Of a stretch of DNA of 64,000 nt, positions 5,801 through 31,950 are shown in pieces. Position 1 is the first letter of the stretch; every line of letters starts with the position of its first letter. A program made the translations under genes and the position numbers. The stretch is from Eutreptiella sp. 'Long Island Sound 2002' (Eukaryota; Euglenozoa; Euglenophyceae; Eutreptiales; Eutreptiaceae): positions 97,033,474 to 97,097,473 of the forward strand of contig OZ038384.1 of the NCBI GenBank assembly GCA_964036045.1, given 5' to 3'. The notes under the pieces were generated by a model. That model was not told the DNA's origin, did no database searches, and saw nothing but the letters and a program-made list of their open reading frames with translations.

Positions 5801-6835
5801 GACGGAAGGGGTTCCGTCAAATATTTGGTGGGTCTACACCCCCCAAATATTTGACGGAAGGGGTTCCGTCAAATATTTGGTGGGTGTACAGCCCACAAAT
5901 ATTTGACGGAAGGGGTTCCGTCAAATATTTGGTGGGTGTACAGGGGTTCCGTCAAATATTTGGTCACTGTACAGCCCCCAAATATTTGACGGAAGGGGTT
6001 CCGTCAAATATTTGGTGGGTCTACACCCCCCAAATATTTGACGGAAGGGGTTCCGTCAAATATTTGGAGGGTCTACAGCCCCCAAATATTTGACGCAAGG
6101 GGTTCCGTCAAATATTTGGAGGGTGTACAGCCCCCAAAATATTTGACGGAAGGGGTTCCGTCAAATATTTGGAGGGTCTATAGCCCCCAAATACTTGACG
6201 CAAGGGGTTCCGTCAAATATTTGGAGGGTCTACACCCCCCAAATATTTGATGGAAGGGGTTCCGTCAAATATTTGGTGGGTCTACAGCCCCCAAATATTT
6301 GACCGAAGGGGTTCCGTCAAATATTTGGTAGGTGTACACCCCCCAAATATTTGACGGAAGGGGTTCCGTCAAATATTTGGTGGGTCTACACCCCCCAAAT
6401 ATTTGACGGAAGGGGTTCCGTCAAATATTTGGTGGGTGTACAGGGGTTCCGTCAAATATTTGGTGGGTCTACACCTCCCAAATATTTGACCGAAGGGGTT
6501 CCGTCAAATATTTGCCGGGTCTACACCCCCCAAATATTTGACGGAGGGGGTTCCGTCAAATATTTGGTGGGTGTACAGCCCCCAAATATTTGACGGAAGG
6601 GGTTCCGTCAAATATTTGGAGGGTCTACAGCCCCCAAATATTTGACGGAAGGGGTTCCGTCAAATATTTGGAGGGTGTACAGCCCCCAAAATATTTCACG
6701 GAAGGGGTTCCGTCAAATGTTTGGTGGGTGTACAGCCCCCAAATATTTGACGGAAGCGGTTCCGTCAAATATTTGGAGGGTCTACACCCCCCAAATATTT
6801 GATGGAAGGGGTTCCGTCAAATATTTGGTGGGTCT
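2890..6835. repeat. Higher-order duplication, 1,945-bp period
   Basis: Within the satellite, the block from about 2,890 recurs at +1,945 with the same ordered variants: half-units, CACTGTAC spacer, CAAATACTTG arm, ATTTCACGG arm and GGGGG loop. Agreement runs until about 6,835, where the spacers diverge. This is a recent tandem segmental duplication rather than drift of single units. Boundaries are judged by eye. Confidence 0.85.
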
Positions 6836-7479
6836 ACAGCCCCCAAATATTTGACCGAAGGGGTTCCGTCAAATATTTGGTGGGTGTACACCCCCCAAAT
6901 ATTTGACGGAAGGGGTTCCGTCAAATATTTGGTGGGTCTACACCCCCCAAATATTTGACGGAAGGGGTTCCGTCAAATATTTGGTGGGTGTACAGGGGTT
7001 CCGTCAAATATTTGGTGGGTCTACACCTCCCAAATATTTGACCGAAGGGGTTCCGTCAAATATTTGGTGGGTCTACACCCCCCAAATATTTGACGGAAGG
7101 GGTTCCGTCAAATATTTGGTGGGTGTACAGCCCCCAAATATTTGACGGAAAGGGTTCCGTCAAATATTTGGTGGGTGTACAGGGGTTCCGTCAAATATTT
7201 GGTGGGTGTACAGGGGTTCCGTCAAATATTTGGTGGGTGTACAGCGCCCAAATATTTGACGGAAGGGGTTCCGTCAAATATTTGGTGGGTGTACGGCCCC
7301 CAAATATTTGACGGAAGGGGTTCCATGAAATATTTGGTGGGTGTACAGGGGTTCCATCAAATATTTGGAGGGTCTACAGCCCCCAAATATTTGACGCAAG
7401 GGGTTCCGTCAAATATTTGCAGGGTCTACAGCCCCCAAATATTTGACGGAAGGGGTTCCGTCAAATATTTGCAGGGTCT

Positions 7480-9690
7480 ACAGCCCCCAAACATTTGACG
7501 TAAGGGGTTCCGTCAAATATTTGGTGGGTGTACAGCCCCAAAATATTTGACGGAAGGGGTTCCGCCAAATATTTGGTGGGTCTACAGCCCCCAAATATTT
7601 CACGGAAGGGGTTCCGTCAAATATTTGGGGGGTCTACACCCCCCAAATATTTGACGGAAGGGGTTCCGTCAAATATTAGGTGGGTCTACACCCCCCAAAT
7701 ATTTGACGGAAGGGGTTCCGTCAAATATTTGGAGGGTGTACAGCCCCCAAATATTTGACGGAAGGGGTTCCGTCAAATATTTGGAGGGTCTACAGCCCCC
7801 AAATATTTGACGGAAGGGGTTCCGTCAAATATTTGCAGGGTCTACAGCCCCCAAACATTTGACGTAAGGGGTTCCGTCAAATATTTGGACGGTCTACACC
7901 CCCCAAATATTTGACGGAAGGGGTTCCGTCAAATATTTGGTGGGTCTACACCCCCCAAATATTTGATGGAAGGGGTTCCGTCAAATATTTGGAGGGTCTA
8001 CAGCCCCCAAATATTTGACGGAAGGGGTTCCGTCAAATATTTGGTGGGTGTACAGGGGTTCCGTCAAATATTTGGGGGGTCTACACCCCCCAAATATTTG
8101 ACGGAAGGGGTTCCGTCAAATATTAGGTGGGTCTACACCCCCCAAATATTTGACGGAAGGGGTTCCGTCAAATATTTTGAGGGTGTACAGCCCCCAAATA
8201 TTTGACGGAAGGGGTTCCGTCAAATATTTGCAGGGTCTACACCCCCCAAATATTTGACGGAAGGGGTTCCGTCAAATATTTGGTGGGTGTACAGGGGTTC
8301 CGTCAAATATTTGGGGGATATACAGCCCCCCAATATTTGACGGAAGGGGTTCCGTCAAATATTTTCAGGGTCTACAGCCCCCAAATATTTGACGGAAGGG
8401 ATTCCGTCAAATATTTGCAGGGTCTACAGCCCCCAAATATTTGACGGAAGGGGTTCCGTCAAATATTTGTAGGGTCTACAGCCCCCAAATATTTGACGCA
8501 AGGGGTTCCGTCAAATATTTGCAGGGTCTACAGCCCCCAAATATTTGACGGAAGGGGTTCCGTCAAATATTTGCAGGGTCTACAGCCCCCAAACATTTGA
8601 CGTAAGGGGTTCCGTCAAATATTTGGTGGGTGTACAGCCCCAAAATATTTGACGGAAGGGGTTCCGCCAAATATTTGGTGGGTCTACAGCCCCCAAATAT
8701 TTCACGGAAGGGGTTCCGTCAAATATTTGGGGGGTCTACACCCCCCAAATATTTGACGGAAGGGGTTCCGTCAAATATTAGGTGGGTCTACACCCCCCAA
8801 ATATTTGACGGAAGGGGTTCCGTCAAATATTTGGAGGGTGTACAGCCCCCAAATATTTGACGGAAGGGGTTCCGTCAAATATTTGGAGGGTCTACAGCCC
8901 CCAAATATTTGACGGAAGGGGTTCCGTCAAATATTTGCAGGGTCTACAGCCCCCAAACATTTGACGTAAGGGGTTCCGTCAAATATTTGGACGGTCTACA
9001 CCCCCCAAATATTTGACGGAAGGGGTTCCGTCAAATATTTGGTGGGTCTACACCCCCCAAATATTTGATGGAAGGGGTTCCGTCAAATATTTGGAGGGTC
9101 TACAGCCCCCAAATATTTGACGGAAGGGGTTCCGTCAAATATTTGGTGGGTGTACAGGGGTTCCGTCAAATATTTGGGGGGTCTACACCCCCCAAATATT
9201 TGACGGAAGGGGTTCCGTCAAATATTAGGTGGGTCTACACCCCCCAAATATTTGACGGAAGGGGTTCCGTCAAATATTTTGAGGGTGTACAGCCCCCAAA
9301 TATTTGACGGAAGGGGTTCCGTCAAATATTTGCAGGGTCTACACCCCCCAAATATTTGACGGAAGGGGTTCCGTCAAATATTTGGTGGGTGTACAGGGGT
9401 TCCGTCAAATATTTGGGGGATATACAGCCCCCCAATATTTGACGGAAGGGGTTCCGTCAAATATTTTCAGGGTCTACAGCCCCCAAATATTTGACGGAAG
9501 GGATTCCGTCAAATATTTGCAGGGTCTACAGCCCCCAAATATTTGACGGAAGGGGTTCCGTCAAATATTTGTAGGGTCTACAGCCCCCAAACATTTGACG
9601 TAAAGGGTTCCGTCAAATATTTGGAGGGTGTGCAGCCCCCAAATATTTGACGGAAGGGGTTCCGTCAAATATTTGGAGGGTGTACAGCCC
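7480..9690. repeat. Higher-order duplication, 1,102-bp period
   Basis: The variant order starting near 7,500 recurs at +1,102. It includes the AAACATTTGACGT arm, the CAGCCCCAAAAT spacer, the ATTAGGTGGG arm change and a GGGGGATATACAG spacer. Much of the same block also occurs 5,480 bp upstream near 2,020-2,870, so at least three related copies of this higher-order block exist. Confidence 0.8.
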
Positions 9691-12352
9691 CCAAATATTT
9701 GACGGAAGGGGTTCCGCCAAATATTTGGTGGGTCTACAGCCCCCAAATATTTCACGGAAGGGGTTCCGTCAAATTTTTGGGGGGTCTACACCCCCCAAAT
9801 ATTTGACGGAAGGGGTTCCGTCAAATATTTGGTGGGTCTACACCCCCCAAATATTTGACGGAAGGGGTTCCGTCAAATATTTGGTGGGTGTACAGCCCCC
9901 AAATATTTGACGGAAGGGGTTCCGTCAAATATTTGGTGGGTGTACAGGGGTTCCGTCAAATATTTGGTGGGTGTACAGCCCCCAAATATTTGACGGAAGG
10001 GGTTCCGTCAAATATTTGGTGGGTGTACAGGGGTTTCGTCAAATATTTGGGGGGTCTACAGCCCCCCAATATTTGACGGAAGGGGTTCCGTCAAATATTT
10101 TCAGGTCTACAGCCTCCAAATATTTGACGGAAGGGGTTCCGTCAAATATTTGCAGGGTCTACAGCCCCCAAATATTTGACGGAAGGGGTTCCGTCAAATA
10201 TTTGCAGGGTCTACAGCCCCCAAACATTTGACGTAAGGGGTTCCGTCAAATATTTGGTGGGTGTACAGCCCCAAAATATTTGACGGAAGGGGTTCCGCCA
10301 AATATTTGGTGGGTCTACAGCCCCCAAATATTTCACGGAAGGGGTTCCGTCAAATATTTGGGGGGTCTACACCCCCCAAATATTTGACGGAAGGGGTTCC
10401 GTCAAATATTTGGTGGGTCTACACCCCCCAAATATTTGACGGAAGGGGTTCCGTCAAATATTTGGTGGGTGTACAGCCCACAAATATTTGACGGAAGGGG
10501 TTCCGTCAAATATTTGGTGGGTGTACAGGGGTTCCGTCAAATATTTGGTCGGTGTACAGCCCCCAAATATTTGACGGAAGGGGTTCCGTCAAATATTTGG
10601 TGGGTCTACACCCCCCAAATATTTGACGGAAGGGGTTCCGTCAAATATTTGGAGGGTGTACAGCCCCCAAAATATTTGACGGAAGGGGTTCCGTCAAATA
10701 TTTGGTGGGTGTACAGCCCCCAAATATTTGACGGCAGGGGTTCCGTCAAATATTTGGAGGGTCTACACCCCCCAAATATTTGATGGAAGGGGTTCCGTCA
10801 AATATTTGGTGGGTCTACACCCCCCAAATATTTGACGGAAGGGGTTCCGTCAAATATTTGGTGGGTCTACAGCCCCCAAATATTTCACGGAAGGGGTTCC
10901 GTCAAATATTTGGTGGGTCTACAGCCCCCAAATATTTGACGGAAGGGGTTCCGTCAAATATTTGGAGGGTCTATAGCCCCCAAATACTTGACGCAAGGGG
11001 TTCCGTCAAATATTTGGAGGGTGTGCAGCCCCCAAATATTTGACGGAAGGGATTCCGTCAAATATTTGGTGGGTGTAGAGCCCCCAAATATTTGACGGAA
11101 GGGGTTCCGTCAAATATTTGGTGGGTCTACAGCCCCCAAATATTTGACGGAAGGGGTTCCGTCAAATATTTGGAGGGTGTACAGCCCCCAAATATTTGAC
11201 GGAAGGGGTTCCGTCAAATATTTGGTGGGTCTACAGCCCCCAAATATTTGACGGAAGGGGTTCCGTCAAATATTTGGAGGGTCTACACCCCCCAAATATT
11301 TGACGGAAGGGGTTCCGTCAAATATTTGGTGGGTCTACACCCCCCAAATATTTGACGGAAGGGGTTCCGTCAAATATTTGGAGGGTGTACACCCCCCAAA
11401 TATTCGACGGAAGGGGTTCCGTCAAATATTTGGTGGGTGTACAGGGGTTCCGTCAAATATTTGGTGGGTCTACACCTCCCAAATATTTGACCGAAGGGGT
11501 TCCGTCAAATATTTGGTGGGTGTACACCCCCCAAATATTTGACGGAAGGGGTTCCGTCAAATATTTGGTGGGTCTACACCCCCCAAATATTTGACGGAAG
11601 GGGTTCCGTCAAATATTTGGTGGGTGTACAGGGGTTCCGTCAAATATTTGGTGGGTGTACAGGGGTTCCGTCAAATATTTGGTGGGTCTACACCTCCCAA
11701 ATATTTGACCGAAGGGGTTCCGTCAAATATTTGGTGGGTCTACACCCCCCAAATATTTGACGGAAGGGGTTTCGTCAAATATTTGGTGGGTGTACAGCCC
11801 CCAAATATTTGACGGAAGGGGTTCCGTCAAATATTTGGTGGGTGTACAGGGGTTCCGTCAAATATTTGGTGGGTGTACAGGGGTTCCGTCAAATATTTGG
11901 TGGGTGTACAGCGCCCAAATATTTGACGGAAGGGGTTCCGTCAAATATTTGGTGGGTGTACGGCCCCCAAATATTTGACGGAAGGGGTTCCATGAAATAT
12001 TTGGTGGGTGTACAGGGGTTCCGTCAAATATTTGGAGGGTCTACAGCCCCCAAATATTTGACGCAAGGGGTTCCGTCAAATATTTGGAGGGTGTACAGCC
12101 CCCAAATATTTGACGGAAGGGGTTCCGTCAAACATTTGGAGGGTCTACAGCCCCCAAATATTTGACGCAAGGGGTTCCGTCAAATATTTGGAGGGTGTAC
12201 AGCCCCCAAATATTCGACGGAAGGGGTTCCGTCAAATATTTGGTGGGTCTACGCCGCGTCCAGGTTCTGTGGTCTGATCTGTACTTTTTCTCCTTGTAGT
12301 TTGTTTTTGCCTCATTACACCTTTCCCTGTGCGAGTTCGCGTTCTGCCAGTT

Positions 12353-12500
12353 CGCCTACTGTGCGCCTTTGAGCCAAAGCTACCTGGCTCGGTCCGAGCC
12401 ATTGCGCTTCGCGACTGAACCTTGATCGCCTACTGTGCGCCTTTGAGCCTCAACTTTCGGTCTCAGTCCAAGCCATTGCGCTTCGCGACTAAACCTTGAC
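12353..12500 (+). repeat. Two 74-bp direct repeats upstream of the protease gene
   Basis: CGCCTACTGTGCGCCTTTGAGCC recurs at a 74-base interval (starts at 12,353 and 12,427). Both copies continue to a shared CATTGCGCTTCGCGACT segment. The repeat lies about 260 bases before the long frame and could be promoter or 5' leader sequence of the element; that role is inference. Confidence 0.75.
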
Positions 12501-12511
12501 GTAGCCAGTGC

Positions 12512-12778
12512 GTGCCTGTGAGCAGCAGCAGTTCGTTTGTTGTCATAGCCCTAGCGCTCTCGACAACAAACCCACTAGCAACGGCGTCTCCTGGACGAGC
12601 CGGTGAGCCTGAGGACCAGCCCGGCTGGCACTTTGAGTACCAAGGACCTGCCCTTGATTGCCCCCCCGAGTTGTGGGAGCCCCATAGTGGTCCCGGTTGT
12701 GGACCCTGCAAGCCTCGAAGGTCACCCAAACCACTAACAGTCATGGTGCACGAGCCAAGCAATGGATCAGCGTGCTGA
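12512..12778 (+). CDS. Possible small leader reading frame
   Basis: An 88-codon frame that overlaps the start of the next gene by 17 bases. It starts at a GTG-type context rather than a clear ATG, has a Ser/Ala-rich start and then a Cys/Pro-containing tail. No domain is recognised. It may be only 5' leader sequence of the element. Confidence 0.2.
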   Translation: MPVSSSSSFVVIALALSTTNPLATASPGRAGEPEDQPGWHFEYQGPALDCPPELWEPHSGPGCGPCKPRRSPKPLTVMVHEPSNGSAC

Positions 12779-15700
12779 ATGGCCACCGGAGCACTTGCTG
12801 GAGCCAGCAAGAATGAAGTATGGCCTAATGCTGGCCACAGGACAATTGGGGTGGGAGGCCACACCGGAGGTGGCCGGGCGCCTATGGCGATGGTTGAGGG
12901 ACCGCATGGCCTCGTGTGACCTTGATGTGGTGAATCTGCATGGTTGCACGGCATTGTGCCGGTTCATGTACACCGAGCATGGGTTTGCCAAGCCCACCAT
13001 GCATGATGGGGGGAGCCTCGTGCACTACCGGGATGTTGCCACAGACTTGTGGGAACGACTTGCGAAACGGAACACTGGCCGTCCAGGCAGTCGTAAGGCC
13101 GGTGCTATTGCCGGGTGGCCGTCAAGTGTGAAGACAGCAGAGCAAAGGGACGTTTGGTGTGAACTGGTGCGTGCCCTACCTCTGGTCGACGAGTGGCCGT
13201 TCTGGACTGGGGACGTGGCGTATCCCACCCCTACCATGGGTTACTTCTATGACAAGGCTATTCGCCATGTGACGCCTGGCCCATATCTGTGGCCCCAAAC
13301 GACAAGTGGGCCCAAACCACTGGTGAGCGACCTGTTGCCAAGCCCCAAGGCGCGCGCTAGCGGTCGGCGCAACTCGTTGCTGCCTGAGGCTGCGGTCCCA
13401 CGTGCGTGTGTCACTGTCACCCAGACACGGCAAGAGCGCTTTGACCACGCGTTGCTGCAAGCCGCCCATGGGGCAGCCCGCTGCCTCACGATTGCATGCC
13501 AAGGGCTGCAAGAGCAGCGCCGAGAACCATTGACTGAGGACAGCCTGGTGGCAGCATACACGCTGGGCCGCCACTTCGCGAACAGCATGCGGGTGCCTAT
13601 GCAAGACTGCAACGAGCTCTTGCTGCGTTGCAGCCCCTTTAGCCCAGAGGTGCCAGACAGTCATCCCGGTCGTCTGCATGCGGCCGTACGGGTTATGGAC
13701 AACGCATGGAGGGATGATGCAGGGCTTGAGATGCTGCAGGTACTAGTGGAGGAGATGGAGGCGGCCGGTGTACAGCCAGCATACACCCAACGATTAAGTC
13801 CAGGAGGGCACCCCCGAGGTGACCCAAGTGACTCCACGTCCTCTGCCGTAGCGCAGGGGGTTGGAGCGGCGGTGCGCATGGAGGAGATGGAGGCGGCCGG
13901 TGTACAGCGACCATGCACCCAACCTTTAAGTCAAGAAGGGCACCCCAGAGGTGACCCAAGTGACTCCACGTCCTCTGCCGTAGCGCAGGAGGGTGGAGCG
14001 GCGGTGCGCATGGCAAGAGACCCCTCAGGCGATGAGTCTGTGACTCCCACTTCGTCCTCCCTGGCACAAGGGCGTGGTCCCCCGGCAGGTGCACCTAGGG
14101 TGGAGACTGGTGAGGTGTTAAGTCCACCTGCCTCCCCCCCAGGTGGTGCGAACGCGGCATGTGTTGAACGTGGAACACCGGACCCCTGGTCCCAGGTCTG
14201 CCCCGCTGGTGAGTCACACTCCCCGGCCCCCCACCCTGTGTGTCTGACACCGGCGGCTAGTGATGGAGGGGTGGCGAGTTCCTTGGAGGAGTCTCCTGTA
14301 CCACTTGCACAGAAACCCAAGGAGCCAGCTGCTGTGGACTGCAGTCCTTCTAGCACAGGCACTGTGGGGACAGTGAAGGCCTGCAGTCAGTCTAGTGCGG
14401 ATTCAGGGTACACCCCGGTTGAACACCCTAGTTCATTGGCGACAGTGAGGGCTTGCAGTCAGTCCAGTGCAGAGTCAGCGACCACCCCGGTTGCACACCC
14501 CAGTTCTGTGGGACAGAGCCCACGGAGCAAGAAGCGCCCAGGGGTTCCCCCACCAAGTAATGGGGCTGCCGTGAAACGTGGCAAGAAAGAGCAAGGCACA
14601 AAGACAGCGCCGATAGATCCAGATGCTATGGCATTGGACCACGTGGACAAAAAGCCCAGCAAGGCCGAGGTTGGCAGAGTCCTACCAACGGCAAGGTCCT
14701 TGAAGCTTCGCATTCTTCCCGACCAATACGTTGCCGGGGCATGTTTCTACTATGCCGTGGCCCAAAGCCTGCATGCTATCACCAGCAACACCCCGTTGGA
14801 CGGCGCATCGCTGCGGGCAAGGGCCATCGCCGTGTTTCGCGACATGTGTGGGCTTTCAATTCAAGAGTCTTCACTATCTGTGAACCGGGATCTTGAGAAG
14901 GACACATGGCGTGGCCGGCCCCAAGGGGGAATGGCTGACCACTTTGTTGCCTTGGCGAAGCACGTGGACGGTAGTGTGGTGTTGCTGCGATCAGACAGGT
15001 ACAGCATTGTGACGTCAGGGTTTGGGATTGACAGCGCGTTGACATCCGCTGCTGTTTGGGTGCCTGGACGGGAGCATCCGCTGCACTACCGTGACTGTGG
15101 GGATATGGAGGAGCAGTGCCACCGGGCGACGGTGGTGGTTATTGCCGAGGCGGAACGAGATGGTGTCAAAGGAGGTGGTCATTTTCGGGGTGCAGTCTTT
15201 GACCATTCGCTGCAGGTAGCCCCCTTTTGCACGTTGCACGGGATGATGGGCATCTTAGCATACAAGCGTGGGCCGGTTGGGGGGGTTAGAGCGTGGCATT
15301 TGCAACTAGGGGTTGGTGGTATGAAGGGCCACACCAATGCAACAGACTGCCGCCGCACTCGTCTAGTGCAACGGACACGCAACTACAAGCCACTAGTGAC
15401 CCTGGTGAACAAGATGGCAAGGCAGATGTTGCCTGATTGGTTCACATGGACCACCATGCAATTGTCTTGCAATGTGCTCACAAAACCGCATCAGCATGTG
15501 CATGACGCGTCCCCTTGGTCGGCAGTGTTTTCCACCGGCCAGCACACACGGGGACACATATGGGTGGAGGTAGGTGGTGTATGTAATGGTCGGGGTGGAC
15601 GGAGATGTAGTATGGAATGCTTGGATGGTGTTACACGGGTTGGCGCCACGTACGATGTATGCCGGCAACCGGTTCTCGTGCGTACGGGTGCATGGCATGG

Positions 15701-15827
15701 CACTTGTTCTTGGCACGGGGAGAGGAGGTTGGTGGTGTTGTACTCCCGTGGTGACTGGTGGACACTCCCGCCGCGGGACCGTGCATTCCTCGATGAGACC
15801 GCTTTCCGCTTACATGCAGGTGCATAG
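12762..15827 (+). CDS. OTU/papain-like cysteine protease candidate, 1,021 aa
   Basis: Function is not certain. Residues 1-180 form a unique Trp-rich domain I do not recognise. Residues about 320-640 are low-complexity Ser/Pro/Gly linker with two internal duplications. Residues about 647-815 look like an OTU-type cysteine protease fold: a candidate nucleophile Cys661 in GACFYYAVAQSL and a candidate His807 in GGGHFRGAVF, 146 residues apart, which suits that family. The usual OTU Asp three residues before the Cys is missing, so catalysis is uncertain. Residues 820-1,021 are His/Cys/Trp-rich and unassigned. The ATG at 12,762 has a purine at -3 and G at +4. The stop overlaps a possible next start (ATG at 15,814) in another frame. 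It presumably belongs to the transposon that also encodes the USP and transposase. Confidence 0.65.
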   Translation: MDQRAEWPPEHLLEPARMKYGLMLATGQLGWEATPEVAGRLWRWLRDRMASCDLDVVNLHGCTALCRFMYTEHGFAKPTMHDGGSLVHYRDVATDLWERLAKRNTGRPGSRKAGAIAGWPSSVKTAEQRDVWCELVRALPLVDEWPFWTGDVAYPTPTMGYFYDKAIRHVTPGPYLWPQTTSGPKPLVSDLLPSPKARASGRRNSLLPEAAVPRACVTVTQTRQERFDHALLQAAHGAARCLTIACQGLQEQRREPLTEDSLVAAYTLGRHFANSMRVPMQDCNELLLRCSPFSPEVPDSHPGRLHAAVRVMDNAWRDDAGLEMLQVLVEEMEAAGVQPAYTQRLSPGGHPRGDPSDSTSSAVAQGVGAAVRMEEMEAAGVQRPCTQPLSQEGHPRGDPSDSTSSAVAQEGGAAVRMARDPSGDESVTPTSSSLAQGRGPPAGAPRVETGEVLSPPASPPGGANAACVERGTPDPWSQVCPAGESHSPAPHPVCLTPAASDGGVASSLEESPVPLAQKPKEPAAVDCSPSSTGTVGTVKACSQSSADSGYTPVEHPSSLATVRACSQSSAESATTPVAHPSSVGQSPRSKKRPGVPPPSNGAAVKRGKKEQGTKTAPIDPDAMALDHVDKKPSKAEVGRVLPTARSLKLRILPDQYVAGACFYYAVAQSLHAITSNTPLDGASLRARAIAVFRDMCGLSIQESSLSVNRDLEKDTWRGRPQGGMADHFVALAKHVDGSVVLLRSDRYSIVTSGFGIDSALTSAAVWVPGREHPLHYRDCGDMEEQCHRATVVVIAEAERDGVKGGGHFRGAVFDHSLQVAPFCTLHGMMGILAYKRGPVGGVRAWHLQLGVGGMKGHTNATDCRRTRLVQRTRNYKPLVTLVNKMARQMLPDWFTWTTMQLSCNVLTKPHQHVHDASPWSAVFSTGQHTRGHIWVEVGGVCNGRGGRRCSMECLDGVTRVGATYDVCRQPVLVRTGAWHGTCSWHGERRLVVLYSRGDWWTLPPRDRAFLDETAFRLHAGA
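13748..14012 (+). repeat. Tandem coding duplication inside the protease linker
   Basis: A segment of about 132 bases encoding EEMEAAGVQ...GHPRGDPSDSTSSAVAQ occurs twice in tandem, keeping frame. A second, shorter in-frame pair (ACSQSSA...HPSS) lies near 14,371-14,505. Both expand the Ser-rich linker ahead of the protease-like domain. Confidence 0.8.
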
Positions 15828-16440
15828 TGGGCCACTTGGTGGAGCACCGCGGCGTCCATGGGGAATGGAGAATCCACATGGGTACCACTGGTGTTGGTTG
15901 GGTACCACGCTGCAGTGTCTGTTGGTGGCGTCGGGTGGACATGCAGGACACGCAGGACACGCAGGATGCCTGGACGAGGAGGGTGTCCGGGGACCATTGT
16001 GGCAGGGTGTTGTGGCACATGGAGGAGGTGGTGCATACAATCCACAGGACATTGCTGAGAGGCTGGCAATGGAGGATGCCATGTGTGAGACGGTGTGCCG
16101 ATGCAGCGGGCGATGCAAGTGCAAAGCCCCTGCACCAAAATTCCAATGGATGCGGCAGGCGGAGATGCCCGAGTGTTGGAAGTATATGGTGCCCAAGCTC
16201 ACGGCCGCTGGGGTGGTTGCTCTGTCATGTTGTTTGTCGTACGAGCAGTTCTGGCAATACTGTGGTGCCTGTGGGGTGAAGGTTCTGCGGGAGGGGGGGG
16301 AGACAGCCATGCCAGCGCAGATATTGCATGTGACGAACCAGGGACAGAGTGTGCGCCAGCGTGTGAAGGAGGGAATGAAGGGGAGACCGGTTGGGCTACC
16401 TGACAACCCCCCCCCCCGTGTCTGTGTGAGGGTGACCTGA
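15814..16440 (+). CDS. Ubiquitin-specific protease, N-terminal (Cys-box) half
   Basis: The frame contains GYHWCWLGTTLQCLL (codons from about 15,880). This matches the USP (peptidase C19) Cys box, in which an aromatic and Leu follow the nucleophile Cys, here at 15,892-15,894. Further on, YCGACG and MPAQILHVTNQ resemble the USP Cys-X2-Cys finger and the strand before the His box. The frame ends at TGA (16,438-16,440) just after an 11-base C run (16,407-16,417). The other half of the USP domain continues in a different frame immediately downstream. Starts possible at 15,814 (overlapping the previous stop) or 15,865. The GNTC signature is replaced (HWC), so activity is not assured. Confidence 0.65.
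   Translation: MQVHSGPLGGAPRRPWGMENPHGYHWCWLGTTLQCLLVASGGHAGHAGHAGCLDEEGVRGPLWQGVVAHGGGGAYNPQDIAERLAMEDAMCETVCRCSGRCKCKAPAPKFQWMRQAEMPECWKYMVPKLTAAGVVALSCCLSYEQFWQYCGACGVKVLREGGETAMPAQILHVTNQGQSVRQRVKEGMKGRPVGLPDNPPPRVCVRVT
16407..16417 (+). other. C11 run at the USP frame switch
   Basis: Eleven consecutive C separate the two USP halves. Upstream coding uses one frame and downstream coding uses another, and both frames are open across the run. A one-base length change here would join them into one USP-transposase polypeptide. Assembly error, mutation or slippage are all possible. Confidence 0.8.
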
Positions 16441-16451
16441 GGGAGGCACCA

Positions 16452-19400
16452 ATGTATACATCGGTGGTGTACAACGAGGTCGTGGGGTTACATGTCCACA
16501 ACCAGCAGGAGTACAAGTTGGTTGTGGACCATGAGTTTCTCGATTGCCTGGGGTGGCAATGGTCCTTGCATGCCATGGTGTTGCACATTGGAGCGACGAG
16601 GGAGGAGGGTCACTTTGTGGTGCATGTCGTTTTCAACGACAGGTGGTGGTCGTGTAACGAAACGACGGTGAAGGCCATGAATCCCCCCCCCGACCCGCGA
16701 AAGGCGACGTTTCTGCTATACAAGCGGAAACAGACAGATTTGGTTGTACCAGACATGTTGCAGCGTGCCTCCCAACGGACAGGACCGCCGGCCCCTGGTC
16801 AGACACGGGATGCCCGGAGCGTACCTACTGACACCTCGGTGCCAGCCATGGCGCTGGCACCAGGTGCGTCCCCCCCCACCCCTCCTTCAACACAGGGTGC
16901 ATCAAGGGTGGGGTACATCAGGAACAGGCCTATGCATGCCCAGAGCGTGCCTATGGACGCCTCTGTGCCAGCCATGGCGCTGGCACAAGGCGCACCCCCC
17001 CCTTCCCCAACTGCAACACAGAGTGCTTCAAGGGTAGGGGACATGAGTACGCATGCCCAGAGCATGCCTAATGAGATGTGTGTGGCTGCCTCGGCGCCGC
17101 TACAGACGTCCTCAGAATTTGTTGAGGCAATGGCACAGTTGCTGCAGAAGCGCAAGGTGCGAGTGGCAAGGCATCTGAGAGTGCGTGTTGAAGCACACCA
17201 GATGCAACTGAGAGCACGGCATGCAAAAGAGTGGGATGCGCGGCATGCAGAGCATGGCATGTCACAATCCTCAGTGGCACAATCAGTCGAGCAAGACAGG
17301 TTGAGGTCTGTTGCATTGGCCGCATCGGGGAAGGACGCATTGTGCGTGTTGATGCAGGCCACTCCCATGCAGCTGGACAGTGGTCCAAAGACACTACAAA
17401 TGTTTGTAGCCGCTCATTGGCAGCATCAGTTCACGACAAGTGGGGGTGTTGAGTGTGTGTGTTGTGCGTGGGCAAACGTGTGTGGCATTCCTGGGGTGGC
17501 GCGTCCCCCTAAGAAAAGTGAAGCCCTGGTATTGGGAACATATGCTGTAGGGATGCGCATGAAGACCTCCGGCCCAAAAACGTGGCGGAAGGAGGTGTTG
17601 GAAAGCCACTTGGGGTTATCACGTGGCACAACATCAAACCGAAAGAATCTGCATAGGCCAGGGCACCACCACCGATTGGCTGAGGACAGTTTCAAGCTGC
17701 ATTGTGCAGAGCGGTATCGCGCATTGTGCCCCACTGCTGGTGCCACAGCTGTGGTGGTGGGAGCGACCGTTGTGTTCGTCAGGGGGGAAGCCATGGACAT
17801 TGGTGTGGCAGTGTCGGATGCTGAGGCAGCCATTCTGTCACGGTTGGTTGAGGTGTATATAGGGTTACGCATGTGCACTTCCATCCGTGCTATAAGTGAG
17901 CGCATCCTTCTGCACTGTTCTCTGACATCCGCCCCTGGGCACCATGCATCACGGCGGTGGATAGTTGAGAAGGCTATTGCCGCAATGCATGATGCCATGC
18001 AGGATGAGGTAACGCATGCCCTATTCCTGGCAACGTTCATTGCAGTGTTGCTTGACGGCTCGGATAGGCAGAGGCATCGCATCAATGAGTATGCCATTCT
18101 GCTTATTTTCCCGGGGACTGGCCCTGGGGGCATGTGTGAGGTGTTTCTTGGTGTGGTGGATGTGGCCTGTGGTGATGCGCATGAGGTTGCAACGCAGCTA
18201 GAATGCGTCCTGATGTCCTGGATTCCTGACCGTGATTGGTGGGCAAAGAGGGTAGTGACCTTTGCAGTGGACGGGGCTTCTAACCTTGGTGTGCGGGGTG
18301 CCAGTGCGCGGCAGGTTGTTGATGTCTCACACATTGAGAGCAATGTGTTCGCCTTGATTGGGAAGTGGTTAGTGTTGATGACACCCTTGGGTGAGCCGTG
18401 CCATGTGTTGCAGCGCAAGTTGGGTCTTGCATTGGAGGCTGCTGGCCCAACCCATGTTGATTACTTGGCGGCCGTCAATCGGCAACGAGGCTTGTACAAT
18501 GGGGCACGGCAGTGGAAGGAGTTGCAAAAGCGTGTGCAAAGGCATGTGCAGGATAAACGTAGTGGCTTGCAGCTCATCCCCACAAGTCATCGCATCAGGT
18601 GGTCCCAGGCGCATGCACGGCGCAACACTGCTTTTTTGGCCAATGTCCCTTGGGTGGCACGACACTTGGATTCCAAGGTGCAGCATTCTACCAAGGAGGA
18701 GGATGTGTGGGAGGACTGCCATGATGCCAGTTTGCTTGCATGGGGGGTGGTCTACGGGGACATCCTGCATGGCATGCGGTGTTTTAACAGTGTGGCACAA
18801 CTACGTGCGCCCACTGGTGCACACTTAGCCACTGCAACGGGTATGCTAGAAGCCCGGTTGCAGAGGGTGGCTCGCGAGGAGGGTCCAGGGTGGTTGCAAT
18901 TCAAGGAGCAGACTGTAACTGGTGCGTGGCGTGGTGTGCAGTTGGTCCAGTTTGATTCAGGTGGGCAGAAGTGTGCAACAACCCCTCCTTTTCCAGGCGT
19001 TCAGGCGCGTGCAGTGACCGATGTGTTGCTTGCAGGCATCAAGGAGGGGCAGGCAACCATTGACCCCAGGGGGGTGTTGGAGTGCGCAGTCTTGTTGGAC
19101 CATGGCCGTTTCGTTGCCCTCCCGGTCAATGAGCGTGCTGCATATGGGGTGGAGCAGTTGCGTCAGTTCATGACTTCACACCAAGAAGAGTTGGGTGCAG
19201 CCAATGTGAACTGTGACCGTGCCTTGGTAGAGTGGGAAGGCCTTAAGGAGCACATGGTGCAGCACTTTGCAACTGTGCAAATGTCCAAGATGTGGGAGGC
19301 ACTGGCACCTGAAAGGGCACATGCGCAGTGGGGGAATGTGTGGCGCGTTCTCGCATTATTGCGAACATATTGCCCCGCTGAAGCTGCAGTAGAGCGTGCC

Positions 19401-20324
19401 ATCTCTTTGCGTGGGAGGTTCTGCAGTAGTATGCATGACACTGTGGAGACACATGTCCTGAGCATGTGCATGGCATTGCATTCCAACTTGCCCCCTTTAC
19501 AGCAATGGGCAAAGGGACAAGGCGTTGCAGTGGCACGCCACCTGGCTGCCCATGCACGCTTCGATCTGCGCCCAAGACAAAGGGTTTCAAAGAAGGTAGG
19601 GGACAGAGAATCTGTGGAGGCTGCAATGCTTCAATGTCTGCAAGGTAATGAAGCAGTGGCTGATGATGGTGACAGCCTGCCCTTCTTTGGAGGGCCGGGT
19701 ACACCACTGAGCTCAACGGCACCCTCAGGAAAGGGTACAGAACGGCACCAGGCAGATGTGGTCAGCATTGTTGCACCTGATGGGACCCCTGACTCGCGTG
19801 CTGGCAACCATGACTTCATCACTTTTCGCAGAGGTATGGAGTGTGCCACATGCAAGAAGGAGGTTCGCATCTGGTGCAATACATGTCTGGTGTGCCATGC
19901 ATGCTTTTGCGCAAGTCCACGTCCTTGTGGGAACGTGGTGGTGAATGTTGTAGATGATGTCTGTGATGAGGGGGAGAACAATAGTGCAGACGAATTGGCC
20001 ACACCACGGAAGCCAAATAAGAGGCGTGGTGTGGCCAGGATGCAGGCGAAATTGGTGATGGCCACGCAGAATGGCAGGCTGCGTGATTGGTCAAAGGGGG
20101 CGCTGTTGAACTGTCTGGATGTGCTTGGTGTGAAGGTGGCAGGTAACAGCGATCGGCAGGAACTGCGGGACCTTGCTACGCAGCATGCGTTGCCATTATT
20201 GGAAGAATGGGATGCCTTTGTGCCGGACACGGACCGTGTCACCCGTTCTGCGGCACCACCAAGCAGCTCCCAGCCCAGTTGCTCGCAGCCAGTGGATGAC
20301 ATGGATGGACTCATCGATGAATGA
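16452..20324 (+). CDS. USP His-box half fused to hAT-like transposase and SAP domain
   Basis: Residues 33-93 carry a USP His box: LHAMVLHIG, EEGHF with His54, WWSCNE with Asn69 in the third catalytic position, and the terminal ATFLLYKRK strand. After a Pro/Ala linker (95-215), residues about 320-420 hold a Cys/His cluster resembling a BED/TTF finger (CVCC...ESHLGLS). Residues 520-990 look like a hAT RNase-H fold transposase: Asp535 (LLDGSD), Asp607 (FAVDGASN), Cys650-His651 (CHVLQRKLGLA) and Glu981 near the C-terminal dimerisation-like region. Residues 1131-1160 form a Cys-X2-Cys zinc cluster, and 1210-1246 match a SAP DNA-binding helix pair. The frame stays open upstream of this ATG through the C11 run, so the protein may begin in the preceding gene. 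Confidence 0.75.
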   Translation: MYTSVVYNEVVGLHVHNQQEYKLVVDHEFLDCLGWQWSLHAMVLHIGATREEGHFVVHVVFNDRWWSCNETTVKAMNPPPDPRKATFLLYKRKQTDLVVPDMLQRASQRTGPPAPGQTRDARSVPTDTSVPAMALAPGASPPTPPSTQGASRVGYIRNRPMHAQSVPMDASVPAMALAQGAPPPSPTATQSASRVGDMSTHAQSMPNEMCVAASAPLQTSSEFVEAMAQLLQKRKVRVARHLRVRVEAHQMQLRARHAKEWDARHAEHGMSQSSVAQSVEQDRLRSVALAASGKDALCVLMQATPMQLDSGPKTLQMFVAAHWQHQFTTSGGVECVCCAWANVCGIPGVARPPKKSEALVLGTYAVGMRMKTSGPKTWRKEVLESHLGLSRGTTSNRKNLHRPGHHHRLAEDSFKLHCAERYRALCPTAGATAVVVGATVVFVRGEAMDIGVAVSDAEAAILSRLVEVYIGLRMCTSIRAISERILLHCSLTSAPGHHASRRWIVEKAIAAMHDAMQDEVTHALFLATFIAVLLDGSDRQRHRINEYAILLIFPGTGPGGMCEVFLGVVDVACGDAHEVATQLECVLMSWIPDRDWWAKRVVTFAVDGASNLGVRGASARQVVDVSHIESNVFALIGKWLVLMTPLGEPCHVLQRKLGLALEAAGPTHVDYLAAVNRQRGLYNGARQWKELQKRVQRHVQDKRSGLQLIPTSHRIRWSQAHARRNTAFLANVPWVARHLDSKVQHSTKEEDVWEDCHDASLLAWGVVYGDILHGMRCFNSVAQLRAPTGAHLATATGMLEARLQRVAREEGPGWLQFKEQTVTGAWRGVQLVQFDSGGQKCATTPPFPGVQARAVTDVLLAGIKEGQATIDPRGVLECAVLLDHGRFVALPVNERAAYGVEQLRQFMTSHQEELGAANVNCDRALVEWEGLKEHMVQHFATVQMSKMWEALAPERAHAQWGNVWRVLALLRTYCPAEAAVERAISLRGRFCSSMHDTVETHVLSMCMALHSNLPPLQQWAKGQGVAVARHLAAHARFDLRPRQRVSKKVGDRESVEAAMLQCLQGNEAVADDGDSLPFFGGPGTPLSSTAPSGKGTERHQADVVSIVAPDGTPDSRAGNHDFITFRRGMECATCKKEVRIWCNTCLVCHACFCASPRPCGNVVVNVVDDVCDEGENNSADELATPRKPNKRRGVARMQAKLVMATQNGRLRDWSKGALLNCLDVLGVKVAGNSDRQELRDLATQHALPLLEEWDAFVPDTDRVTRSAAPPSSSQPSCSQPVDDMDGLIDE

Positions 20325-20889
20325 GAGGATGCCCACGTATTTGCATGTGCCCTTTTGTTGTTGTGTGCTGTCTTCGAAGATTTTTCCCATTTTCCCTGTT
20401 TGCACATTTGATTTGATGTTCTGTGGCATTACCACGACCATTTTATTTGTGGATCTGAATTTAACTGATGCTGGTTGCAATGGTCATGATGCAATCCCTT
20501 GAGATGTTTCCCATTTGGCTTTTTTGTGTGGTGGTTGTTCAATTTTCCCACTTTTCCTGGTCCCACATTTTCCCCTTTCCCCTTTCCCCTTTCCCCTTTC
20601 CCCTTTCCCCTTTCCCAAAGTACACAAACAAATTGTCTGCTCAAACAACCAAAATCAGAATCAAATTGAAGTTGTCACATACACTACTGTCAACAACAGG
20701 TGTGCAATTGCTTTCCAAACAGGGGGGGTCTGTGTTTTCTGTGGCGCCTTTTCTCCTTGGGGGGGGGGAGGGAGGCTGGAAAGCACCCGATAGTGGGGGG
20801 GGGGGATGGGTGGGGGGGGTTTCCTGTGAAGAATTTGGTGTGGACAATGGCGGGGGGGGGGGGGGGGGGGGCATTGGACCCCTAGACCC
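20325..20889. repeat. Non-coding stretch with CCCCTTT microsatellite and G runs
   Basis: No gene is visible. A polypyrimidine repeat (CCCCTTT units, about 20,568-20,617) is followed by several G runs between 20,755 and 20,872, the last one about 18 bases. This separates the transposase frame from the next coding-like segment. Confidence 0.85.
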
Positions 20890-21757
20890 ACCTCCAGTAC
20901 ATAAGAATATCAGACATCTTCGTGGACAGACCGCACACACAACATCCCTTATCAGACATCAGGCATCAGACCTTATACACATAGCTGACGACCACGTGGC
21001 TGCCGATGCCCGTCACACCCTTGACACCCTGGGCCTCGAGGCGGTCATTGAGGCCCGGGCGGGAGGACAACGCTTGGTTCTGGCTTCCGCCAGGGGCCCG
21101 GAGCAGGACGGGGTTGATGTCATCGGGGAGGTCTTACGGGACTATGGTTGGGAGCTCCTGGCGCATGGCACACACAGCCCCAAAGTGGCGCGGTGGCCCC
21201 GGCTGCTTGAGAGCCTGCCGGTGATGCCCGACGGGCGACCGATGCTCCGCCCGGTGTCCACGTGGGAGGAAGCGAGGCGCAGCCTCCTCAGTTGTGCCAC
21301 AGCACGCACACTGGCGGGTGCTTTGCTCGGGCTCCAGGACGTGTGCTGCGATGTATGGCAGGACCTGTGGTCGCAGTGTTGTGATGGTAGCTGCGTTCCG
21401 TCGCGGTCTGTGCTTCCGCAGCGATGCCACGGGTGCGGGGAAACGGTGTCAGTTTGGGTTCATCAGTGTGCCTCCGTCCCGCTATGCGGGACATGTAAGG
21501 AGCGTGCCGATAGGGGGTGGCCTAAGGCGAGGTGGGCACTGCGGCACTCTGGACAGATGTCCTCAAGTGCCTGGAAGACTATCCAGGGTGGCCTGAAGAG
21601 CGTCCGAGTGGAAGGGGTACGGTGCCCTGGAGCGCCGTCTGCGGCCCTGCCCCTGATGCTGTGGTGGGCGGCTCTGGAGGGCGACTCACGGATACTCTGG
21701 TTGTGGCATCACGGAGGAAATGGTGACGGCGTGGTGGGGGCCGGGGGCGCAGATTGA
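20890..21757 (+). CDS. Hypothetical protein with Cys4 cluster
   Basis: An open frame of roughly 285 codons beginning within or after the G runs, with no clear start. It includes an Arg/Ala/Leu-rich region (LDTLGLEAVIEARAGGQRLV) and a possible zinc cluster CHGCGETVSVWVHQC...CGTCKE (about 21,425-21,505). From about 21,540 the alternative frame ending at 21,726 reads more naturally, suggesting an indel or intron. I do not recognise a family. Confidence 0.35.
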
Positions 21758-23153
21758 TGGGGTTAGGAATTATGGGTGCACCAGCTACCGTCCCTACGCT
21801 GGACGTAGCGGAGGGGGTAGCGCCTGAGAAGCAGTGCCTTCACGGCCTGATTGTGCGGTACTGGCAGGCGGCGTATGACGGCCAACGCGATGTGACAGGT
21901 CGTGCCGGCCTGATGGTGAGCCGTACTGCCCCCGTGCATGAGGGTCGGACAGGGATGCTTCACCCGCCTGCCCCGGGTCGCCGCATACAACAGTGAGGTG
22001 TCATGGGTCGTCCCGACCAGGGTAATAAGGCCCAAACCCCTGTAGGGTATTCCCATGGCACCGGGGTCTCTACTGGCGGCCTGGCTACGGCAGTACTGGG
22101 AGTGGTTGCTCGGGATACACCAGGGGTGCACGGAGTTGTCTGGGGGTTACGGCGTTGCGGCGCCCCCTGGGAGTGTTACACGGGGTTGCGGGGACAGCCT
22201 GCAGACCCCAGGGGCGGCGACGAGGCGAAGATGTGTGCGTAGAAGGATATGACAGCGAGGTCGTCAGGGGGACAGTATGGCGGGCGTCCTGGAGACGGCG
22301 TGGCAGCCTGGGGGGAGCACTCACGGGGGGCACGTAGAGTTCAAGGTGACGATGTACTGGCGTCTTGGGGGTATACGCGGCGGTACTGGGGTCCGTACGG
22401 TGGGGGTACGCGGCGGTACTGGGGAACCGTACAGTGGGGGAGCAGCGGGGAAGCATGGCGGTACTGGGGTGTCCCCCTGACCCCTCTAACAACTCAGGGG
22501 GAGCGTGGGGGCATCCCCTGGCCCCGTTAACAAACTAGAGGGACCGTGCCTGCGGGCATGTACATAGTCTAACCTCTGACCATGGCCTTGTGGTTGCGGT
22601 GGTGCGTGTCGTGGCGGCTCGCAGGTGGCGTCGGCGTGGCAACAGCGGTACTGCGTGGCGTCGTAGCGAAGAGTATGCGGTCGCCTCACCACTGTAACGG
22701 CTTACCCCTGGGGGGCGCCAGTCCGGTCGGCTAGAGGCGAGGAGGGAGAAGGAGCGGCATGCTGAGTGGTCCGGGGGGTGACGCGCGGGCCAATGCTATA
22801 AGTAGGCTCGCCACGTCGTCGGTGGGGGCCGAACCTGCGGCCTGGCCGCTGCTGTGGCGGAAGAGGCGCAACCACGGGAGCTGGCCAAACAGTGCAGGTA
22901 AGGGTCAAGGGTAGGCGCCAGGGCAATGTATGTGGGCCAGATGAGGTGCACCTGGTTACCACAGCCCGGGGCGAGCCTCTGGTGGGTACCCCTACAGGGG
23001 GTCGATAACCAAGCTACGGCACCCACCGGCCCGAATCCCAGCCAGCGATATTCACGGGTTGCGCCACTCCCGTCGCGTAGCGGCCGGCGTCCCCCCCTGT
23101 AGACCCTCAAGTTATATTATACGTGGGCAAGTGGATGCCTCGAAGCTGATTGG
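21758..23153. other. GC-rich stretch, no confident gene
   Basis: Many short frames on both strands, none with a recognised motif. Between about 22,370 and 22,470 the segment GCGGTACTGGGG recurs three to four times. The stretch could hold exons broken by small indels, but I cannot support any particular one. Confidence 0.5.
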
Positions 23154-23828
23154 GTGCTGGCCCCTGACATGGAGTGCCGGCATGGTATATATCTGGGGTG
23201 TGGGAGCAGCTCAGGGCCACGGGGACGTGGAATTGATACCGTGTTTCTGTACTATACTAGGGGGATGGTGCGGTGGGTCGGCGGCGTACATTGTGGGGAC
23301 ATGGGGGCGATGAAAGCTGAGGGCCAGGCTAGGCTGGAGCCTCCCAGAAATCCTGGCTATGCACATACGGGCTATTGCGTGCTGGCAGAGGGATACGTGG
23401 AGTTAGGGGTGGTGGGCAATTTCGAGAACGCAGACGGCAATGGATTCCGTGGGGTCATGGGTGATGGACGTCTCCACGGTTGCGGGGGTACGCGAACGAC
23501 GGAGGGTCAGCTGTCGCTTCGCCGCATGCGTGCTGCTTTGATCCTTGGTTGCCGCTTTGCGACGGACAGAGAAGCCCTTGCTTTCTACTTGTTGCGATGC
23601 TGCTGCGTTGCTTTGCCTTGCCCCCTTACCCCCGGCGAACAAACGGGCCAGCGCCCGTCGCCGTTGCTAATGCTAACGCACTGCAGTTGCCACTGCCCCC
23701 AAAGCCTGGTTGACCGGTATCCCCGGTCCTCTGGGTCCTCCGTCATGCTGTGGGCCACCTCAGGCAGCCCTGGGACCCACGGGATCGAGCGAGGCAGGAA
23801 CCACCTGTCGGCGCGAGATGCCCGGTAA
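23154..23828 (+). CDS. Hypothetical protein, weak
   Basis: A 224-codon frame with a Gly/Tyr-rich first half (VFLYYTRGMVRWVGG, GYVELGVVGNFEN) and a Cys-rich hydrophobic patch near residue 150. The overlapping frame from 23,059 reads almost as well. No family recognised; possibly not coding. Confidence 0.2.
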   Translation: MLAPDMECRHGIYLGCGSSSGPRGRGIDTVFLYYTRGMVRWVGGVHCGDMGAMKAEGQARLEPPRNPGYAHTGYCVLAEGYVELGVVGNFENADGNGFRGVMGDGRLHGCGGTRTTEGQLSLRRMRAALILGCRFATDREALAFYLLRCCCVALPCPLTPGEQTGQRPSPLLMLTHCSCHCPQSLVDRYPRSSGSSVMLWATSGSPGTHGIERGRNHLSARDAR

Positions 23829-23854
23829 CTCCAGTAGACGGCATGATAAGTGGT

Positions 23855-23905
23855 TATGACTATGACTATGACTATATATATATATATATATATATCTCTC
23901 TCTCT
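23855..23905. repeat. TGACTA / TA / TC compound microsatellite
   Basis: TATGAC repeats pass into (TA)n and then (TC)n. This tract abuts the left inverted repeat of the element described next. A mirror-image AGAGAGATATATA tract occurs at the right end (24,778-24,797). Confidence 0.9.
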
Positions 23906-24797
23906 GGGACATCCGGTTCATGCCAACACGGAGCGTTTTCACATTTTTTCAGACTTTTCTCAACTTTTGGCGTAATGCACCAAAATGTCGTCACCTTGGG
24001 GGGGGTATGTGTATGCTTTTCGAAATCTGTGGGAAAACGCCGTTTCAGAAATGTATGGGTTGGGGGGGGTAGGTGGTCACAGTTTTGCGCACCGAGCTGT
24101 ACAAGGGAGGACACACAGGGCACAGGCAATGGTCCAGGGATCACTCATTATTCCGAATCCGATTCGTTGTCATCGTTGCCCCTTTCTGCAAGGGCCGGGA
24201 CTCCATTGGGGCACACATCCCCGTGCTTGTGACTGGGAACATATTTCTTCAGTTGCCAGAAATTCGTGTTGCGAAGCCTTGGTGGGGTGAATCTTTTTAT
24301 CCCAAAACTGGGCTGCAAAAGCCGCGGCCTCAGTAGTGGATAAAATGTCGTGCTCTGTGTGGGCGCATGCAGGCTGCTGTGACCCACCGGTACGAGGCTT
24401 TTTGGCGCGCAAGTCAGGCCGCCGCGTCACCTGCACCCAAGTTTCACCCCCAGATCGCGCTCTTTTTCGCACCAAAGGTTTCAGTGGCGCATCAGGGGAA
24501 GCAACAGCACGTTGTGTGAATTTGTATGAAGACATGGTGGCTGCCTGTTAGCAAAAATAGGCAGCAGGCAACACAGGCACTGTCCAAAGCGGAGAAAAAT
24601 CTCAAACATGTCGTTAGCACAGCATGCAAACCTGGGGTGTTCCGAATAGCCCTTTTCAAGGGCTTTCCGAATATGCCCCACATACCCCCCCCAACCGGAC
24701 ACTCAGCGGGCACAAATGAGACCACAAAGGCACCAACCCCTGAAAACGCTCCGTGTTGGCATGAAACCGCACGTCCCAGAGAGATATATATATATAT
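23873..24797. mobile_element. Short inverted-repeat element in a TA/TC tract
   Basis: The segment 23,906-23,941 (GGGACATCCGGTTCATGCCA, continuing to CGGAGCGTTTTCA) recurs as its reverse complement at 24,741-24,777 with only a few differences. The match extends outward through TC and TA repeats, giving inverted ends of roughly 55-65 bp on a 0.9 kb unit. The size and ends fit a non-autonomous TIR element. The TA-rich ends hide any target duplication, so the superfamily cannot be assigned. Confidence 0.65.
24148..24535 (-). CDS. Small basic protein inside the inverted-repeat element
   Basis: On the minus strand an ATG at 24,535 sits in an excellent Kozak context (GCCACCATG), preceded by a TTTTTGCTAACAG acceptor-like tract. 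The frame encodes a basic N-terminal region (LKPLVRKRARSGG, LRAKKPRTGG) and runs to 24,170. Near 24,260 the other minus frame reads better and ends in an acidic tail (GNDDNESDSE) with stop at 24,148, implying a one-base indel. No family recognised. It is the only coding candidate in this element. Confidence 0.4.
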
Positions 24798-30760: not shown

Positions 30761-31105
30761 GAGCAGAAGGCTCGATAGAAGGGGCAACGGTGGACGTAGG
30801 CCAATGGGGACTACCCAGTGCTCATAGCCTGTTTCCCCTTACCTGGGACGTCCTGTCCAGAATCAACCTGTAGTCACAACGTCCCACCACCAGAAAACTG
30901 CCCCCGCCCCCCAAACCACAACACGTTCTTTGTCACTACCCACCACCACCGCAACCAATGGCGAGAAGAGGGCTTGACAGAAGGGGCAATGGCGGACGTA
31001 GGCCAATGGGGACTTCCGAGTGCTCATAGCCTGTTTCCCCTTTCCTCAGAAATCCTGCCCAAATTCAACCCGTGGTTGCAGTGCCCCACCACCAGAAAAT
31101 ACCCC
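30761..31105. repeat. Tandem duplication, 202-bp period
   Basis: GGACGTAGGCCAATGGGGACT...GTGCTCATAGCCTGTTTCCCCTT occurs at 30,792 and again at 30,994, with good agreement through the CCCACCACCAGAAAA segment. No coding function is evident. Confidence 0.85.
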
Positions 31106-31175
31106 CCCCCCCCTCACCACAGCGCACAGTGCACAGTGCATGCACAATCTCGAAAGCAAAGACCGTTCATGCAGA

Positions 31176-31950
31176 CAGAAAGGATACAAGAGGTATTGGG
31201 TTGTCACGAATGTCGACAGGGTTGCTGCCGACATAAAAAACAATTTGAAAAAACTAAAAGGCCAGTCGGTCTTTACACATGACTTCGCCCGCATGTATAC
31301 CAGTATTCCACAGGAGCGACTCCAGACTAGAGTCAAACAGGCCATTTCTGAAGTTTTCACATGGCACAGTAAAAAAACTGGTGTTCCCTTTGAGCAACTT
31401 CGTGTTGACATCTCTTACTCCAGCAATGGACGTGCCACAGCCAAATTCGCTGAGGATGGCTTTTCTTTCAATGAGATTTCAAACATGTTATGCGAGGTCT
31501 GCGTGGAGGTATATTTCCAACAGCACGACCAGGGTCAAATCCGCAGACAGGTCTGCGGCCTTCCCATGGGAGGCAAATGTTCGGCAGAACTAGCAAATCT
31601 TGACTGCTATGCCGTTGAAGCTGAATTTATTGACCATTTAATTGAAAACAATCGCCTGGATGAGGCCAAGAAATGGTTTTTCACTTGGCGTTACATTGAT
31701 GACCTCTGCGGCTTTGGGGATAGAGGCCAAAGCTGGGATCGGCTCATGTATGGCATGGATCATGTAGACACAACCGATTCCCCCTACAATGTCCAGAATA
31801 AATCTTCAATGACTTTTTTTCTCGGCATGAAGATTACTACTAATGCCGACGGCATATGGACATCCGTCCAGCCCAAAGGGCCCAAAGGGGTCGGTTGGAA
31901 GTGATCCCTCAGCGTTTCATCGAGTATGGCTCATGCCATACACATTACAC
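31176..31950 (+). pseudogene. Penelope-type reverse transcriptase, 5' fragment
   Basis: RT motifs in order: motif A FTHDFARMYTSIPQ, motif B RQVCGLPMGGKCSAELANLD, catalytic FTWRYIDDLCGF, then FFLGMKI. The Met-Tyr-Thr-Ser-Ile-Pro and PMGG forms are characteristic of Penelope-like RTs rather than LTR or LINE types. The 5' part is missing after a C run near 31,108. A one-base indel near 31,898 shifts frame into VIPQRFIEYGSCHTHYT. The gene is cut at 31,950 by the insertion that begins there, and its remainder resumes at 42,105. Confidence 0.8.

Follow-up and report, generated by a model that had tools for sequence, protein, structure and literature searches.

A candidate USP-type protease domain joined to a hAT-like transposase frame in Eutreptiella sp. 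'Long Island Sound 2002'

Unrelated transposons repeatedly carry ubiquitin-class and SUMO-class proteases (OTU, Ulp1 and VTD; PMC2836005 and PMC9741609). Ginger1 transposons carry an OTU or Ulp1 domain at the transposase end, and the Trichomonas vaginalis protein XP_001314237.1 combines Transposase_11 with Peptidase C19, so that OTU, Ulp1 and Transposase_11 plus C19 on transposases are already in print (PMC2836005). Helitrons and Helentrons carry VTD and OTU domains (PMC9741609). Transposon protease domains have been proposed to target DNA repair factors (PMC2836005) and to shield transposition proteins from degradation (PMC9741609). Here, a transposon-like element is described from a 64,000-nucleotide stretch of Eutreptiella sp. 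'Long Island Sound 2002' (the window; contig OZ038384.1 of assembly GCA_964036045.1, positions 97,033,474 to 97,097,473 of the forward strand), in which the two boxes of a putative ubiquitin-specific protease (USP) precede a candidate hAT-like transposase. Database searches returned 36 proteins related to the frame with the Cys box (the Cys half) and 8 related to the 1290-amino acid (aa) frame with the His box (the His half) and the transposase; these relatives are given below by P numbers.

USP boxes and the joined transposase frame

The USP His half, a linker and the transposase were found in one stop-free frame in the window copy and in the three database proteins P0002, P0005 and P0044 (the frame of P0044 reaching only the first part of the transposase), from which the fusion is taken to be common to the family. 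The joining of a USP (C19) domain to a transposase is thus supported, at the level of predicted proteins, as an architecture common to relatives, as the sequence-only reading of this locus had proposed. For P0002 the identity was 60%, with 97% of the 1000 query residues covered. When the window copy was compared with P0002 and P0005, the USP His half was 54-56% identical across subfamilies, the linker 38-45% and the core between the two Asp residues 73-78% (protein identities, which are no measure of selection); a USP more conserved than its linker is the pattern that retention of the USP beside an unconstrained linker would give.

The His half of the window copy was matched by the Pfam UCH profile (PF00443; USP, peptidase C19) with E = 3.4e-5 (score 24.0 bits, cut-off 23.9). 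Of the 7 relatives scanned with the same profile, 6 scored above the cut-off (best P0033, 2.6e-9), and P0009, which ends ahead of the third catalytic residue, fell below it (0.003). Precomputed UCH annotations were present on 7 of the 36 relatives of the Cys-half frame, and alignment A1 has 8 members, of which 2 matched UCH and only 3 contain the USP stretch. Searching the PDB with a 17-row family profile (E up to 10) returned five sequences, every one a USP5 or USP12 aligned over the His box, with a best E of 0.039. With the 1290-aa frame alone (E up to 10) three matches were obtained, USP5 being last (1.5) behind two unrelated proteins, and with alignment A1 the PDB search gave no match. Box patterns were PROSITE-like and loosened to fit, and were compared with 40 single-base shuffles: the six-frame translation of the window has one match to the relaxed His-box pattern and the shuffles have none, and the strict His pattern matched nowhere in the 64-kb window. 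The His at the catalytic position was kept in 9 of 10 relatives, and the third catalytic residue, which by USP7 numbering would lie at 16656-16658, was Asn or Asp in all nine relatives that reach it.

The Cys half is assigned to a USP because its box occurs nowhere else in the six-frame translation of the window (one match to the relaxed Cys pattern; shuffles mean 0.2, maximum 2), because the box Cys is kept in 20 of the 22 relatives with a readable box (of 36 found) and because of the spacing in P0009. In this protein Cys 34 and His 271 stand in a single frame with the Cys box first, 237 residues apart, a distance close to that of known USPs. CRCSGRCKC (16096..16122) and CGACGVKV (16261..16284) are possibly the first and second halves of a USP zinc site, judged against USP structures. 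Of the split USP claimed by the sequence-only reading, the His half is matched by a C19 profile and the Cys half by none; both halves are regarded as genuine and as parts of one protein.

In the transposase, all 8 rows of A1 have D535 and D607, and the five relatives that extend to E981 (P0001, P0003, P0004, P0007 and P0046) all have it. The CH pair was found in 6 of the 7 relatives P0001-P0007, with CN in P0003. All four features were present as first described, in the same frame as the His box and at the same positions. The order D, D, E is hAT-like (the catalytic role being assumed), and we take D, DGASN and, close to the C-terminus, ERxxS to resemble hAT transposases in sequence order and appearance. 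A C/DxxH motif after the second D is a further hAT feature; C650 and H651 are adjacent rather than three apart, so that the motif is not clearly present there, and by eye the window has D624-V-S-H627, where the other subfamily has Ala for His. Sub-stretches of the window compared with Pfam gave nothing relevant to hAT, and no Pfam match was obtained around ECVCCAW (17352-17735 searched). A hATC-like label for the stretch before E981 would say too much; Foldseek with this stretch gave 12 matches (E up to 10) with a best E of 1.0 and none at or below 0.001, which were taken as meaningless. The hAT-like label that had been given to this gene holds for motif order and finds no Pfam or PDB-profile match, and a hAT-like transposase is called plausible by motif only. 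The SAP-like end that had also been named was unconfirmed, with no Pfam match in 19791-20321.

Reading frames across the C11 run

As first described, the Cys and His boxes of the window copy lie in separate frames, at the positions given, and the two frames join at a run of exactly 11 C (16407-16417). This run was compared across the 18 protein clusters that cover it (groups at 90% identity, whose member counts are rough), the window copy and P0005 standing outside these 18. It was read through in 10 clusters with 104 member sequences (P0002, P0009, P0013, P0015, P0025, P0026, P0030, P0033, P0038 and P0044) and was not read through in 8 clusters with 25 member sequences (P0010, P0011, P0012, P0014, P0017, P0018, P0027 and P0035). 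P0002 reads through without a long proline stretch, P0013 breaks shortly past the run, P0035 passes into unrelated sequence, and P0005 begins within it and then continues. In P0016, P0020, P0032 and P0036 the frame was lost earlier, beside the G run at 16293; in P0015, P0026 and P0030 it was lost further on, close to the run of C at 16683.

There is no family-wide frame change, because 10 of the 18 clusters read the run in frame, and the frame offset is for the same reason not conserved among copies. Of the two reasons offered earlier for the join, a one-base error or mutation stands and a programmed slip does not. On the predicted frames, the simplest reading of the frame change in the window copy would be homopolymer slippage in individual copies or an assembly error.

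Runs of 7 to 11 G or C were observed within 12762-20324 at 14134, 15279, 16293, 16407, 16683, 16870 and 16995, and the frame of several relatives breaks beside some of them.

ORF1, element layout and surroundings

Coordinates are collected in Table 1. Relatives of the upstream open reading frame, ORF1, were P0045 and P0046. In P0008 and P0046 natural deletions have removed the USP and brought ORF1 and transposase sequence together, and ORF1 is regarded as part of the same element because of these fusions. The end of ORF1 is overlapped by the USP N-half frame at 15574-15827, the two frames differing. Upstream of this overlap, the ORF1 frame of P0037 and P0040 was seen to pass into that of the USP.

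Table 1. Features of the element in window coordinates
Feature	Position	Strand	Remarks
ORF1	12762..15827	+	open frame, 1021 aa; first gene of the putative element
OTU-like stretch of ORF1 (DQYVAGACFYYA ... GGGHFRGAVFD)	14721..15203	+	by eye
USP N-half frame	15574..16440	+	candidate starts MRPL 15793, MENP 15865
USP Cys box CWLGTTLQ	15892..15915	+	putative catalytic Cys codon 15892-15894, in frame of ORF 15574-16440
Cysteine cluster CRCSGRCKC	16096..16122	+	sequence
CGACGVKV	16261..16284	+	sequence
His half, proline-rich linker and transposase frame	16404..20324	+	first ATG 16452, 1290 aa
Run of 11 C	16407..16417	.	frame-change point in window copy; two ORF2 frames meet
USP His box WSLHAMVLHIGATREEGHF	16560..16616	+	putative catalytic His codon 16611-16613; Pfam UCH residues 36-90
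Asn codon, candidate third catalytic residue	16656..16658	+	NETTVK; ND or DD in relatives
Proline-rich linker	16740..17117 (approximate)	+	126-base direct repeat at 16810-17044
ECVCCAW, possible zinc finger ahead of transposase core	17451..17471	+	by eye
D535, first putative catalytic Asp	18054..18056	+	
D607 (DGASN), second putative catalytic Asp	18270..18272	+	
C650-H651	18399..18404	+	
E981 (ERAIS), putative catalytic Glu	19392..19394	+	
Cys-rich, so-called SAP-like transposase tail	19842..20135	+	sequence

The OTU-like stretch of ORF1 had VAGACF in all three covering rows of alignment A6 and GGH in all four rows, Pro took the place of the OTU-like His in P0041, and the stretch gave no Pfam match and only unrelated PDB matches. 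We tentatively suggest, as a rather doubtful extension drawn from these motifs, a transposon with two ubiquitin-editing proteases belonging to different classes, in which the transposase-fused USP would act in cis, its target being the transposase complex, and the OTU-like ORF1 enzyme would act on chromatin or repair factors.

Two transposase clusters comprised 215 and 231 member sequences. Element ends were searched for by comparing 11901-12740 with 20320-24000, and no pair with an exact 8-base duplication and 12-base ends with at most 3 mismatches was found. At a duplication length of 7 bases a single pair was obtained (12588/22294, 3 mismatches in 12), against none in each of three shuffles, and counts for the other duplication lengths were at or under the shuffled level. 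No relatives were found among viral contigs when one protein and two alignments served as queries (a search that may exclude records of the genome to which the window belongs), PHROGs and NCBIfam gave nothing relevant, and Rfam gave no match in the window. A 52-base satellite array, its unit largely self-complementary, occupies 377-12252 and ends about 500 bases before ORF1. By eye, P0003 opens with this translated 52-base satellite followed by the transposase, from which at least P0003 is taken to come from the same or a near genome.

Elsewhere in the window, about seven perfect copies of TTTCCCC stand at 20569-20616, shortly past the transposase gene. A 592-aa frame at 39369-41147 matched RVT_1 (2.3e-11) and is probably a retroelement, and a 294-aa frame at 31020-31904 gave a weak RVT_1 match (0.0037) under the cut-off. 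Tandem arrays were observed at 49316-50838 (85-base unit, 256-base higher-order period) and at 57067-57599 (30-base unit, about 18 copies, within a 349-aa frame).

Interpretation and comparison with known systems

On balance, we lean somewhat towards reading the locus as a decayed copy of a many-copy, two-gene DNA transposon in which a USP-type protease is joined through a linker to a hAT-like DDE transposase, with the USP acting at the transposase or at its DNA complex. USPs remove ubiquitin, and the predicted enzyme would presumably be an active ubiquitin hydrolase. Borne on the transposase, it would act wherever the transposase is, most likely by stripping ubiquitin off the transposase itself or off host proteins that are bound, and the complex could in this way escape proteasomal removal or alter ubiquitin-dependent repair signals. 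In the window copy the two USP boxes would be split by the frame change at the C11 run, through an indel particular to that copy or through an error of assembly. If the reading is true, a USP on a DDE-type transposase would make the role of such enzymes in transposition testable, both activities being in one protein in which each catalytic residue can be changed separately.

Several results weigh against this interpretation. On the USP side, the box Cys is replaced by Ser in P0011 and P0031, the residue two before it is His in the window copy and Asn in 19 of 22 relatives, and P0005 lacks the USP His, with Pro in its place. No Pfam match was obtained for the Cys half (15574-16437 and 15865-16437 searched), PDB searches with the Cys-half frame and with P0009 matched nothing, and the PDB matches of the 17-row family profile cover the His box only. 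An AlphaFold2 model of P0009 from a shallow 17-row alignment had a mean predicted local distance difference test (pLDDT) score of 30.7. On the transposase side, no hAT profile was matched when the 8 members of A1 were compared with Pfam (E up to 10, only UCH listed), and the AlphaFold2 model from a shallow 9-row alignment had a mean pLDDT of 31.8; scores of at least 50 were confined to a part immediately ahead of E981, at residues 892-937 and 957-969 of the 1290-aa frame (583-628 and 648-660 in the model). The whole gene was assembled from overlapping partial frames, no single database protein found covers the Cys box through the transposase, and the role of the USP in transposition is one that we infer.

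The last of these points on gene structure would also be expected if the USP and the transposase were two separate genes and the joined frames were artefacts of gene calling, an account that we hold to be very unlikely given the stop-free USP His half, linker and transposase in the window, P0002, P0005 and P0044. A USP captured from the host that is a decaying passenger without use in transposition is easier to entertain, although still improbable: Cys or His is lost in some copies, frames are broken in many, and P0008 and P0046 have deleted the USP entirely, whereas the boxes are kept between subfamilies, the conservation of the USP exceeds that of the linker, and the transposase is broken in other copies as well.

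The protease might instead process the element's own products, for example by cutting itself off the transposase, since maturation of polyproteins by cysteine proteases is frequent and the linker is both long and variable; USPs normally act specifically on ubiquitin, and no cut site or ubiquitin-like segment was seen (no search was aimed at either), so that we give this account little credence. Least credible is a programmed slippery site at the C run, yielding a USP fragment and a joined protein at a low rate. Runs of C are slippery in principle, and the window copy and 8 of the 18 clusters do not read through, but the in-frame clusters (104 against 25 member sequences) rule out a programmed frameshift as the main reading, P0002 is in frame without a long proline stretch, and other G/C runs break other copies.

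The decayed transposon favoured above can be set beside the systems already described. Relative to the hAT superfamily, the element gives no hAT profile match, its C/DxxH motif is unclear, no ends were found and it carries a USP. With the USP family, of which USP5 and USP12 are the nearest solved members, it shares the His box, the Cys box and the 237-residue spacing (in P0009), whereas its Cys half is too divergent for profiles and the domain is fused to a transposase. Among the literature matches listed, none announced a USP joined to a hAT transposase or a USP placed N-terminal to a hAT-like transposase. Helitrons and Helentrons resemble the element in carrying deubiquitinase-class domains in transposon proteins, sometimes of two classes, and differ in that these are rolling-circle Rep-helicase proteins without a DDE transposase and with VTD rather than USP (PMC9741609). 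In Ginger1 the DDE transposase likewise carries a protease that acts in the ubiquitin or SUMO system, but the protease classes are other ones, their place is on the C-terminal side and the transposase is integrase-like (PMC2836005). The earlier remark that a USP in this position was not known is narrowed by T. vaginalis XP_001314237.1, in which, as in the window element, one protein combines a DNA transposase with a domain of C19 (USP) type; compared by its description in PMC2836005, the transposase is there of the Transposase_11 type, and here hAT-like.

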